DNA from: Pseudomonadota bacterium | GTDB lineage: Bacteria > Pseudomonadota > Gammaproteobacteria > Acidiferrobacterales > Acidiferrobacteraceae | Direction: 5' to 3' | Length of the DNA stretch: 39,306 bases | NCBI GenBank assembly: GCA_021819245.1 | Contig: JAKARI010000022.1 | Span: forward strand, 1-39,306 | In this document: positions 4,061 to 8,904 of the stretch, one piece after another | Layout: every line of letters begins with the position of its first letter | Position numbering within the stretch: the first letter of the stretch is position 1 | Notes under the pieces: model-generated | Databases searched by the model: none | Told to the model about the DNA's origin: nothing | Seen by the model: only the letters and a program-made list of their open reading frames with translations | Position numbers and translations under genes: made by a program

Positions 4061-5176
4061 TTAGTCCCACGATAGCGCCCCACCGGTTTGATATTCCGTC
4101 ACGCGTGTCTCGAAGAAGTTCTTTTCCTTCTTCAGATCCAGGACCTCGCTCATCCACGGGAAGGGATTGGACACGCCGGCGTACTGGACGGGCAATCCAA
4201 TCTGCTGGCAGCGCCGGTTCGCGATGAACTTGAGGTAATCGTCGAACATCGCGGCGTTGAGCCCGAGGACGCCGCGCGGCATGGTGTCGACCGCATAACG
4301 GTATTCGAGGGCCACGGCCTGTTTTATGAGTTCCGCCACCTCGCTTTGAAAGGCCTCGGTCCAGAGGGTAGGGTTCTCGATCTTGATCTGATTGATAAGG
4401 TCGATGCCGAAGTTCAGATGCATGGATTCGTCGCGCAGTATGTACTGGAACTGTTCGCTTGCGCCCACCATCTTGTTGCGCCGGCCGAATGACAGCATCT
4501 GCACGAAGCCGACATAAAAGAAGATGCCCTCCATGATCACATAATATCCAATCAGGTTGCGCAGGAACCGCCGGTCATTGTCCTCGGTGCCGGTCGAGAA
4601 ATTCGGGTTCATGAGTTCGCGGGTGAATTGGAGCTCGAACACATCCTTATCCGATATGCATGGCACCTCGCGATACATATTGAAGATCTCGCCCTGGTCT
4701 AGGCCGAGGCTTTCTACGATGTGCTGATAGGCGTGTGTGTGCAGCGCCTCCTCGAAGGCCTGCCGCAGCAGGTACTGTCGGCATTCCGGATTGGTGATGT
4801 GGCGATAGATCGCCAGCACGAGGTTGTTGGCCACGAGCGAATCGGCGGTCACGAAGAAGCCCAGATTGCGCTTTATGATCATGCGCTCGTCGGCCGTGAG
4901 CCCGGCGGGATCCTTCCAGGTCGCGATATCGCGCGACATGTTGACCTCCTGTGGCATCCAGTGGTTTGCGCAGGCGTCCAGGTACTTCTGCCACGCCCAC
5001 TGGTACTTGAAGGGCACGAGCTGATTGACGTCGGCCTGGCAGTTGATGATGCGCTTGTCGTCGACCTGCACCCGCCCAGAACCAATCTTAAGATCCTCGA
5101 GCCCCGTGACGCCCCCCTGAGGGACCTTGTCCGTAATTGGTGTGCTGTCAAAGTCCAGCATATTCTCCCCCATCAT
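4061..5176 (-). CDS. nrdB: ribonucleoside-diphosphate reductase, beta subunit (class I)
   Basis: The small, radical-generating subunit of class I ribonucleotide reductase, partner of NrdA, about 371 residues. The di-metal ligands are all present: D112 (FFVTADS), E143 and H146 (EEALHTH), E216 (MEG), E250 and H253 (RDESMH). Y150 sits where class Ic enzymes such as the Chlamydia protein have phenylalanine, so a tyrosyl radical is expected. The C-terminus ([13 protein letters not shown]) is the tail that docks on the alpha subunit. The first ATG overlaps the nrdA stop (TAATG), indicating translational coupling. A second ATG five codons on (5161) follows a GGGGGAG tract at short spacing and is an alternative start. 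The sequence resembles the Pseudomonas type more than the E. coli type. Confidence 0.95.
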
Positions 5177-8100
5177 TATTGGCAGGCCTCACACTGCGGG
5201 TCGTTGATGGCGCAGGCCTTCGGCGCCTCGGGCGCGGGTCCCCGTACGGCATTCAAGGCCCCATCGTTGAGTGTCGACTTCTCGACCGAGGTGGCACCCA
5301 GGGTCCGCAGGTAGTATGTGGTCTTCAGACCCTTTTCCCATGCCAGCATATACATGTCGGAGAGCTTCCGTCCGGAGGGCTCGGCCATATAGAGGTTGAG
5401 ACTCTGGGCCTGGTCGATCCATTTCTGGCGGCGCGAGGCGGCCTCGATCAGCCAGCGTGGCTCGATCTCGAAGGCGGTCGCATACAGGGCCTTTAAGTCA
5501 TCGGGCAGGCGGTCTATGCCCTGCACGCGGCCGTTATAGTACTTGAGGTCATTGACCATCACCGGGTCCCACAGGCCGCGCTCCTTGAGGTCGTGGACCA
5601 GGTGTTCGTTGAGCACCGTAAATTCGCCCGACAGGTTCGACTTCACGAACAGGTTCTGATAGGTCGGCTCGATGCTTTGCGCAACCCCGGCAATGTTCGA
5701 GATCGTGGCCGTCGGCGCTATCGCCAAACAGTTCGAGTTGCGCATGCCGTGGCGCGCCACCGCCTCGCGAACCGGCGTCCAGTCGAGATGCACGCTCCGG
5801 TCCATCGTGAGCGACCCGCCACGTGCCTCCTCCACGAAGGCGATGCTGTCTATAGGCAGGATCCCCTTGCTCCATAGGGATCCCTCGTAGCTCGCGTAGG
5901 CCCCGCGTTCCTTGGCGAGCTCGGCGGAGGCGAGGATGGCATAGAAGCTCACGGCCTCCATGGAACGGTCGGCGAACGCCACGGCCTCATCCGAGCCATA
6001 GGGCAGGCGCAGCTTATAGAGCGCGTCCTGAAATCCCATGAGCCCGAGGCCCACGGGACGATGGCGCAGGTTGGAGGCGCGCGCCTGAGGCACCGAGTAA
6101 TAGTTGATGTCGATGACATTATCCAGCATGCGCATGGCGGTCCGTACCGTGCGCCCAAGCCTTTCCATGTCCATGCCGCCCTTATCGCCGACATGGGCCG
6201 CGAGGTTTACGGAGCCCAGATTGCAGACCGCGATCTCCTGGTCTGAGGTATTGAGGGTGATCTCGGTGTTTTTTGTAATGAGCCCGTTTACGGTCCAGGC
6301 GTGCGTCGGCGAGTCCACCGTGAGGCAATACGCATCCTCATTCGGCAGCCTTGTGAGCCCGGTGAAGGTTGCGTAGCCGCGCTCTCTGTCGCTCATCGGC
6401 AGGTGATCGCCCTGGCCGCGCGCCAGATCCCCGGCGTGTGCTGCGAGCGCGGATGCCGCGCGCGCCAGACCTTCGTGGCTGCCCATCGCAAGCTCAAGGG
6501 ATATGTCCTGCGACCGGGTTCCGGTGATCTCCACGATGCGCGTCTCGACCCCGAGGTTGGCCCACAGGATCTGCAGGTCTTGGAGAAATGGCCGGTCGCA
6601 GGATATGAACGCACGCCCCGTGATTCGCCCGCTTCCTGCTTGATAGAGGCCGCGCAGATAGGCCATCACGGTCTCCTTGTCACCCTGCCAGATGAGATCG
6701 GGAATGGTGATAGGGCCGGGCCCGCGCCCCTCCGATGGCTCATGCCGCGACTCGTCCCTTTCGTAAGCCGCGCCCGCGGCCATGGCCGCGCAGGGCGCCC
6801 CGGCATGAGCGGTGTACGCCACGCCAAGGTCCGTTGCCAAGCCCCGTGCACTGGCCATGCGGCCTGCGGTCATGAGCCCCATCACAAACCCCATCTGCGG
6901 ATTGTGGGCGGGCCCAAACAGCCCCTCGCGCTGCTGAACCAGCAGATGGTCCCCGGGCTTTAAGTGCTGCGCCTCGACCCAGCCGCGGTCTTTGACCCAG
7001 ACCTTGTGGTCCGGTGTCACCTTGTGACGGTAGCCCTCCAGGGTCTCGATGCGCACGATCGGGGCATTGGGGCGCGGCAGGAGCATCTCCGACGCATCGT
7101 AGACGCCATCGAGTCCGACCACTCGGTTTGCGCCCCCCATGGCGTAGAGTTCTCCCACGGTCAGCAATCCGCGGTCAGTCACCACCCTCTGGTCGGCGGT
7201 CATGCAGCACAGATTGGAGCTGTGCACCACGCCTCTGTGCCGCTGGGGGCTGCGCAGGTTGCAGGGGTCCTTGAAGGTCAGCCAGGGATGGCCGGTTTCA
7301 AAGAGCATCGAAAGCATCTTGCGCCACAGGTCGAGCGCCCGGACTTTCTTGAAGAGCTTGAGCTCGCCGCGCGCCACGCGTTGCTCATGGCGTTCGTAGG
7401 CGGCCCGGAATGCCTCGCCATAGACGTCATGCAGGTCCGCGGTGTCGGATGGCGAAAACAGCGTCCACTCGGTGCCCGCGCGCACCCGTTCCATGAACAG
7501 GTCCGGAATCCAGTTGGCGGTATTCATGTCGTGAGTGCGCCGCCGGTCATCGCCGGTATTCTTGCGCAGCTCGAGAAACTCCTCGATGTCCAGATGCCAG
7601 GTCTCGAGGTAGGCGCAGACCGCGCCCTTGCGCCGGCCGCCTTGATTGACCGCCACCGCGGTATCGTTTGCGACCTTGAGGAAGGGGATCACGCCCTGCG
7701 ATTTGCCATTGGTGCCCTTGATGCGCGCCCCCAGGGCCCGCACCCGCGACCAGTCATTGCCGAGGCCCCCCGCGTATTTCGATAGCAGGGCGTTATCCTT
7801 GATCGCGCTATAGATGCCATCGAGGTCATCGGAGACGGTCGTGAGATAGCACGACGACAGCTGCGACCGCAGGGTCCCGGCGTTGAACAGGGTAGGGGTC
7901 GACGATACGAAATCGAAGGTTGAGAGGACCTCGTAGAATTCGATGGCGTGCGCCTCCCGATCCACTTCATTGAGGGCGAGCCCCATGGCCACGCGCATCC
8001 AAAACGCCTGGGGCAGCTCGATGCGCCGTTCCTCCCGGTGCAGGAAGTAGCGGTCATAGAGGGTCTGAAGGCCGAGGTAGGTAAAGGAGAGGTCGCGGTC

Positions 8101-8904
8101 GGGTTTGAGTGCCTGTCCCAGGCGCGCGATGTCAAATTCGGCAAGCCGCGGGTCGATGAGCTCCGCTTCCACCCCTTCGCGGATGAAGGCCTGCAGGTAC
8201 TGGGCGTATTCGCTGCGCATCTCGCCATGGGTCGCCGACCGGCCCAGTACCTCGCGCCGCAATACATCGAGCAACAGGCGGGCCGTCACATAGGTGTAGT
8301 TCGGTTCTGTCTCCACGAGCGCCCGGGCGCTCAGAATCGCCGATTGCATGATGTCGCGCTCATCGACCCCATCGAACAGGTTGCGAAGCAGGGCCTGGAG
8401 TACGGTGTCGGCAGACACTTCCTGCAGGTCGCCGCAGGCCTCGTCGATCACGGCCTTGAGCCGCGCGCGGTCGAGCGGGACGCTGCGCCCATCGGCGGTA
8501 CGGACATGGATCTCCGGCTGCTCGGCCGCAGCCTGGCTGCTCGCGCGTGCCTGGGCGCGCTGCTCCCGGTATAGCACATAGCGCCGCGCGGCCTCGTGGT
8601 GGCCGTTGCGCATGAGCGCAAGCTCGACCTGATCCTGAATGTCCTCGATATGGACGGTGCCGCCGCCGGGGACTCGCCGCGTAAGCGCGCCTATGACCTG
8701 ATCCGTGAGCCCCGCCACGATCTCGCGCACGCGCGTCGATGCAGCACCCGAGCTGCCCTCGGTCGCGAGGAAGGCCTTGGTGATGGCGATCGAGATCTTC
8801 GAGGGGTCAAAGCGCGTGGCGTGTCCGTTGCGGCGAATGACGCGTAGGCCGCTTTCGGCGACTCCTGCGCCCAGCGAAGCCTGTGATGAGTGCGCGTAAT
8901 CCAT
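5176..8904 (-). CDS. nrdA: ribonucleoside-diphosphate reductase, alpha subunit, containing an intein
   Basis: The catalytic subunit of class I ribonucleotide reductase, encoded as a 1242-residue precursor. A 313-residue intein (567-879) would splice out to leave 929 residues, close to the length of two-cone NrdA proteins. The N-terminus holds two ATP-cone-like regions (about 21-115 and 132-220). C352 (SSCYL) and C894 (AVCNLG) match the active-site disulfide pair. N564, C566 and, after splicing, E881 form the radical site NLC-TEI. The C-terminal tail [12 protein letters not shown] carries the shuttle cysteines. The ATG at 8904 has AAGGAG ten bases upstream. The gene is first in an nrdA-nrdB unit, downstream of speE and behind a region of inverted repeats. 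Confidence 0.96.
6268..7206 (-). mobile_element. intein in NrdA, with degenerate LAGLIDADG domain
   Basis: Residues 567-879 of the NrdA precursor have intein architecture. Block A is [10 protein letters not shown] with nucleophile Cys567. Block B has the T-x-x-H of [10 protein letters not shown] (T630, H633). Degenerate LAGLIDADG helices lie at 671-682 ([12 protein letters not shown]) and 746-761 ([12 protein letters not shown]). Block F has H868 and block G is NGLITKN ending in Asn879. The +1 extein residue is Thr880. The insertion falls between extein C566 and T880 within SNLC/TEI. The usual acidic residues of both LAGLIDADG motifs are absent, so homing activity is probably lost. The penultimate residue is Lys instead of the common His. 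Boundaries come from extein continuity and the Cys1/Asn-Thr rules, so they are well supported. Confidence 0.92.

Follow-up and report, generated by a model that had tools for sequence, protein, structure and literature searches.

The window analysed here, a stretch of 39,306 nucleotides from a genome of the family Acidiferrobacteraceae (assembly of 54 contigs, 2.25 Mb, 91% complete), carries a gene for the large subunit of class I ribonucleotide reductase (RNR) that is interrupted by an intein at the active site. This raises the questions of how the gene gives a working enzyme, why the element has stayed, and whether its place next to the predicted radical cysteine provides post-translational control of dNTP synthesis, which the initial annotation considered conceivable. 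We think it very likely that the element is a class 1 intein without mobility, which is spliced from NrdA, was acquired horizontally and has been inherited with the gene after loss of its endonuclease. It is an element of a known kind, an ordinary intein, in a moderately interesting setting.

In a profile search, the nrdA product matches the Pfam barrel, all-alpha and ATP-cone domains (the last twice), and the nrdB product scores above the cut-off against its own equivalog model. The intein splits the barrel domain exactly between C566 and T880. In the alignment with P. aeruginosa NrdA (5im3), the match breaks at 567 and picks up at 880, both of which correspond to chain residue 588. The match to E. 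coli R1 pairs precursor residues 134-568 with R1 residues 7-441, and these end coordinates put C566 on C439, which we take to be the thiyl radical residue of E. coli NrdA. The borders and length of the intein given in the initial annotation, and its insertion directly after the C439 equivalent, are thus confirmed (Table 1). The comparison with intein-free relatives that it proposed gives the same picture: in all 5 that were read (L019-L023), SNLC runs straight into TEI, with no gap, and this is the sequence that splicing would restore. An intein start at C566 was considered and rejected, since the product would lose the radical cysteine, yet the empty sites have that cysteine. The predicted spliced NrdA has 929 residues (1242 minus 313), and we infer, in agreement with the initial annotation, that NrdA would be unable to work before excision.

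Table 1. Features of the nrdA locus (positions in the window; residue numbers are those of the precursor or, for C1, T64, H67, C294, H302 and T311 to N313, of the intein)
Feature	Position	Strand	Basis
nrdA precursor ORF, class I RNR large subunit, 1242 aa/codons	5176..8904	minus	NF005544 equivalog (two stretches); PF03477 in two stretches
N-extein, residues 1-566	7207..8904	minus	reading frame; alignments with E. coli R1 and P. aeruginosa NrdA
Intein, residues 567-879, 313 aa, C1 to N313	6268..7206	minus	flanks SNLC and TEI; profiles; empty sites in relatives
C-extein, residues 880-1242	5179..6267	minus	reading frame; alignments with E. coli R1 and P. aeruginosa NrdA
C566, equivalent to C439 of E. 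coli NrdA, position -1 at the splice junction	7207..7209	minus	alignment coordinates; Cys in 37/37
Cys1, predicted N-terminal nucleophile	7204..7206	minus	37/37
Block B TPDH (T64, H67)	7006..7017	minus	37/37
LAGLIDADG endonuclease remnant, intein residues 99-278	6373..6912	minus	PF14528 slightly below cut-off; dN/dS of 0.46 and 0.52 in comparisons with two close relatives
First LAGLIDADG motif, catalytic Asp missing	6856..6888	minus	alignment of homologues
Second LAGLIDADG motif, catalytic Asp missing	6625..6663	minus	alignment of homologues
Block F position 4 Cys, C294	6325..6327	minus	37/37
H302, block F His that may take the role of the absent penultimate His	6301..6303	minus	37/37; role by analogy (PMC5050341)
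Block G end T311-K312-N313, Lys replacing the penultimate His	6268..6276	minus	TKN in 37/37; THN in 3/3 viral contigs
T880, predicted +1 nucleophile	6265..6267	minus	Thr in 37/37
nrdB, small subunit	4061..5176	minus	directly downstream of nrdA; start overlaps the nrdA stop codon

Insertion at this site had been described as known for RNR inteins in general, which is imprecise. Inteins at the RNR radical cysteine do occur, among them those of SPbeta bnrdE and class II NrdJ, but these lie before that residue. All four other RNR inteins with both ends read (SPbeta bnrdE, NrdE of a Miltoncostaea plasmid, NrdE of a staphylococcal SPbeta-like phage and NrdJ of Thermus phage G20c) are inserted one residue earlier than the window allele, so that the radical cysteine is their +1 nucleophile. 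The window allele sits one codon further on, with the radical cysteine as residue -1 and a threonine as +1. The three NrdE inteins also have Asp in block F, unlike the Cys294 of the window copy. A scan of 13 of 15 loci from a class-wide genome sample found NP right before the first intein cysteine in 10, a result that concerns the upstream end only; L077 carries the window allele itself (SNLC/C), in L087 the pattern caught the downstream end only, followed by Cys, and in L089 the pattern found nothing. No published account of an intein in Acidiferrobacter, or of this lineage in the nrdA/RIR1 intein literature, was seen among the papers listed in a search of the openly accessible literature. 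Azotobacter nrdA inteins and RNR inteins in general are already in print (PMC4465626, PMC3653736, PMC2795772). The Azotobacter intein was rejected as a record of the studied site: the available text of PMC4465626 gives residues 442-800, which we take as the upstream VNQ/GG site. In addition to the intein at the studied site, four loci (L047, L048, L052 and L058) have another in nrdA, located upstream between VNQ and GGKRKGA.

Among the intein profiles, TIGR01445 (intein_Nterm) matches the window copy with 25.6 bits, over its cut-off of 24.5, and PF14890 (Intein_splicing; 33.9 bits, cut-off 35.8) and PF14528 (LAGLIDADG_3; 22.4 bits, cut-off 22.5) stay 1.9 and 0.1 bits under theirs. Each of the latter two matches 37/37 aligned homologues at E <= 0.001. 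This alignment contains the window copy and 36 of 39 homologous loci, and spans Proteobacteria, Verrucomicrobia and one Patescibacteria record. Patterns covering the first eight intein residues (CMTADQRV) or block B yielded the 39 loci; a row pattern (NLC, then Cys, plus a KN-TE end) was applied to 38 loci, of which 36 passed. L039 (short C-flank, same junctions), L066 and L071 (contig ends) and three viral loci are omitted. Twelve positions are invariant in 37/37 (Cys-1, Cys1, Thr64, His67, Val69, Trp70, Cys294, His302, Thr311, Lys312, Asn313 and Thr+1), an invariance that is partly built in by the search and row patterns, with no locus dropped for a differing residue.

These residues suggest how the intein would be excised. 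Cys1, the block B TxxH motif (T64, H67), the terminal N313 and T+1, all features of class 1, are each present in 37/37. The penultimate histidine, which is common in class 1 and not obligatory, is absent, with lysine in its place in 37/37. Class 1 mycobacteriophage inteins with Gly, Lys or Ser at this position are described in the available part of PMC5050341, and an upstream block F histidine can take over. At block F position 4, Asp is the commonest residue across inteins and Cys the second, according to the accessible text of PMC4031507. From its residues, the allele is therefore best assigned to class 1; Lys takes the place of the penultimate His, and Cys occupies block F position 4.

The C-terminal half of the allele, as judged by its motifs, resembles class 3. 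Inteins of class 3, typified by mycobacteriophage Bethlehem DnaB, lack a nucleophile at position 1; they have Trp at B:12, Cys at F:4 and Thr at G:5, and mostly Ser or Thr at +1 (available parts of PMC5222942 and PMC3196547). The allele shares Cys F:4 and Thr G:5 (37/37 each) and Thr+1, but has Cys1, and B:12 is Val with the Trp at B:13 (37/37); because these two defining class 3 features are lacking, we rejected class 3 and filed the allele under class 1. It could also be an intermediate of the two classes, in which the acyl group would travel via Cys294, in a triad with His67 and Thr311, before reaching Thr+1. Such a relay would draw on the shared class 3 residues (PMC5222942, PMC3196547 and PMC7664689, as far as their available text goes), which are invariant here together with His B:10. 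We nevertheless regard it as very unlikely, given that Cys1 and Thr B:7, both of class 1, are invariant too, that B:12 and B:13 are as stated, that many inteins have Cys at F:4 (PMC4031507), and that a WCT motif grafted on a class 1 intein failed (excerpts of PMC7664689).

In the preferred class 1 reading, Cys1 would attack the bond to C566 after translation to form a thioester, and the N-extein would pass to Thr+1. Asn313 would then cyclise, presumably helped by the block F His302, since Lys stands where the penultimate His usually is; an acyl shift would then restore SNLC-TEI, the normal active-site sequence. Splicing is most likely of the ordinary class 1 type and constitutive, yielding active NrdA; the Lys at the penultimate place could slow it.

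Selection on the gene bears on whether splicing still takes place. With dN/dS from Nei-Gojobori counts, for which single values are rough because several pairs have a synonymous distance near or above 1, the extein gives 0.03-0.10 in 18/18 pairs and the splicing part 0.02-0.06 in 13/13 pairs. Taken apart, the splicing halves give 0.01-0.07 (first 98 codons) and 0-0.22 (last 35 codons, with few changes). Splicing and the enzyme itself are under comparably strict constraint. Among the 18 family genomes, no match to the class II NrdJ_Z model over the cut-off was present in any (the matches listed are nrdA itself, and the search concerned this model only), and class III NrdD was found by profile search in 18/18. 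NrdD is oxygen-sensitive. Within the scope of the NrdJ_Z and NrdD searches, no oxygen-tolerant RNR other than NrdA was found in the family genomes. It is hardly credible, then, that the intein no longer splices, leaving nrdA inactive and the dNTPs to NrdD or another source. The PF14890 and PF14528 scores just below the cut-offs, the Lys in place of His and the decaying endonuclease part would fit such a loss; the low dN/dS of both extein and splicing part, the lack of internal stops in intein-bearing nrdA, an nrdB over its equivalog cut-off and the failure to find another oxygen-tolerant RNR in the 18 genomes all argue against it.

The endonuclease part tells a different story from the splicing part. 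In both LAGLIDADG motifs, the aligned catalytic Asp is missing from all 14 family rows, and 23/23 homologues outside the family have it. The window copy has no acidic residue ending either motif. The Asp of the second motif falls in a five-column deletion common to all 14 family rows; in two of these (L033 and L037), a Glu after the deletion could be read in its place. The family inteins are 304-316 residues long versus 363-382 for full-length homologues, and the deletions lie at identical alignment columns in both genera. Together with the missing Asp residues, these shared columns are most simply explained by a loss before the two genera diverged. The endonuclease is probably inactive and mobility lost, judging by these missing residues. 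The closest systems are the full-length NrdA inteins of Burkholderiales, Thiocapsa, Azomonas agilis, Macromonas bipunctata, Beggiatoa and Opitutaceae (within L047-L070), which have the same SNLC/C...TKN/T site and splicing residues and are 67-87% identical over the first 98 residues (six compared), but retain the Asp in both motifs. Three viral contigs (L072-L074) resemble the window copy in Cys1, TPDH, the block F Cys, Thr+1 and insertion after NLC, and differ in having the penultimate His and the Asp in both LAGLIDADG motifs.

The NrdA intein is present in 16/18 family genomes, in 17 copies: 13/14 genomes of the window's genus (window included), 3/3 of a second genus and 0/1 of a third. The two genomes counted as lacking it are G015, whose nrdA is intein-free, and G006, with one weak match to the precursor (E 3.7e-8). 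G011 holds two diverged intein-bearing nrdA copies (G011:C19 and G011:C71), from a duplication or a mixed bin. In the class-wide sample, any match at all was seen in 41/369 genomes; outside the window's genus, only G195 clearly has the same allele (72% identity over residues 1-114), and in the others the N-terminal pieces show 27-39% identity.

The origin of the element can be approached by comparing intein and exteins (110 residues before the intein and 300 after it). The first 98 intein residues are 86-88% identical to those of five full-length inteins from beta- and gammaproteobacteria, whose compared exteins are only 65-79% identical; an intein more alike than its exteins points to horizontal arrival. 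Against three Verrucomicrobia and Patescibacteria copies the intein does not exceed the exteins in identity (57-60% versus 54-70%), and against viral contig L072 it does (72% versus 40-45%). The IMG/VR viral contigs L072-L074, which have the same NrdA intein allele, are a possible vehicle between bacteria. The element would have entered the ancestor of this acidophile family by horizontal transfer from a pool of full-length NrdA inteins, would afterwards have lost some 50 residues and, in both endonuclease motifs, the catalytic Asp, and would since then have been inherited along with nrdA. Its retention may be explained by the fact that only exact removal leaves a working essential enzyme.

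Joint descent predicts similar synonymous divergence of intein and extein, and the two are indeed of the same order. The 15-row alignments omit G008 (gene split over contigs). The dN/dS of the endonuclease remnant, again rough for single pairs, is 0.09-0.24 in nine pairs without the window copy (L003) or that of G013 (L008) and 0.46-0.64 in four pairs with either; further values are 0.35 across genera (L004 and L015) and 0.40 for L008 with L010. The endonuclease part in the window species thus decays faster than in most relatives. In most of these relatives the remnant is still constrained, which our preferred explanation does not account for. The trees are not fully concordant either. L003 joins L008 in the intein protein tree (100/98), as does the window copy with that of G013 in the endonuclease protein tree (97/97), whereas in the extein tree L003 groups with L004-L007 (100/99). 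The extein grouping is mildly rejected by the endonuclease part (p 0.03, with long branches), and the splicing DNA does not reject it (p 0.49). The L003-L008 intein grouping, which goes against simple descent, possibly reflects either interspecies exchange or decay in parallel on long branches.

The initial annotation had singled out the two adjacent cysteines at the junction as a feature through which redox state or metals could affect splicing. This does not hold as a special feature, since the pair is present in 37/37 homologues, including copies of other phyla with intact endonuclease motifs. The adjacency arises because one cysteine is the radical residue of the enzyme and the other the class 1 nucleophile. 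We therefore rejected it as evidence of redox control: both cysteines are invariant for separate reasons, and an invariant C-C junction belongs to the allele rather than to the strain, and so provides no evidence for redox or metal control. Regulated splicing, in which a disulfide (C566-C567, i.e. C-1 to C1, or C567-C294, i.e. C1 to C294) or a metal would restrain excision and gate dNTP synthesis under stress, appears unlikely to us. It could build on the three invariant cysteines at the junction and in block F, one of them the radical cysteine, and on NrdA being the sole oxygen-tolerant RNR found (no NrdJ_Z match over the cut-off in 18/18 genomes). There are precedents in the available text of two papers: the block F Cys of M. 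smegmatis DnaBi1 forms a disulfide that stops splicing (PMC6195587), and the R2 intein of A. aeolicus increases iron loading (PMC8772380). However, all three cysteines (C-1, C1 and C294) are invariant across phyla in copies with intact endonuclease motifs, catalysis explains each of them, and the alignment holds no additional invariant cysteine. The Aquifex aeolicus R2 intein also interrupts an RNR catalytic site, but in the other subunit, between diiron ligands, and with 346 residues; it was shown to splice on recombinant expression (available part of PMC8772380).

The window genome has a second intein, of 244 residues, in dCTP deaminase (dcd; L001, G000:C44:44808-46103). A dcd intein of 242-249 residues is found in 17/18 family genomes, with TICLGK/C...HN/STYAR in 17/17; in G015, the genome with intein-free nrdA, no dcd match was found. 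Among the matches listed, PF14890 hits in the 18 genomes fall on nrdA and dcd only (34/34). The dcd intein of the window genome has no LAGLIDADG match at E <= 1. In 12 pairs, the splicing part of the dcd intein has a dN/dS of 0.05-0.28 versus 0-0.02 for its extein, and is less constrained. One could imagine that these two inteins, both presumably without a functional endonuclease and the only ones detected in two acidophilic Acidiferrobacteraceae genera, persist because they benefit the host by gating dNTP supply after translation, the sensor being the block F Cys beside the radical Cys; we find this distinctly improbable. The family copies, together with relatives with intact motifs, form a natural series for asking why an intein outlives its endonuclease, either because it is trapped in an essential active site or because it is useful. 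Within a single element, the series allows constraint on splicing to be told apart from decay of the endonuclease, and the single oxygen-tolerant RNR found and the dcd intein make the question of persistence testable.

The NrdD of these genomes looks split. The ORF for its body ends after the Cys motifs, and the glycyl-radical end (EVWTRVMGYHRP) forms a separate short ORF just downstream. This arrangement is seen in 5/5 genomes read (G000:C37:13500-16800, i.e. L114, and L115-L118), and the NrdD body and glycyl-radical stretch are separate profile matches in 18/18 genomes.
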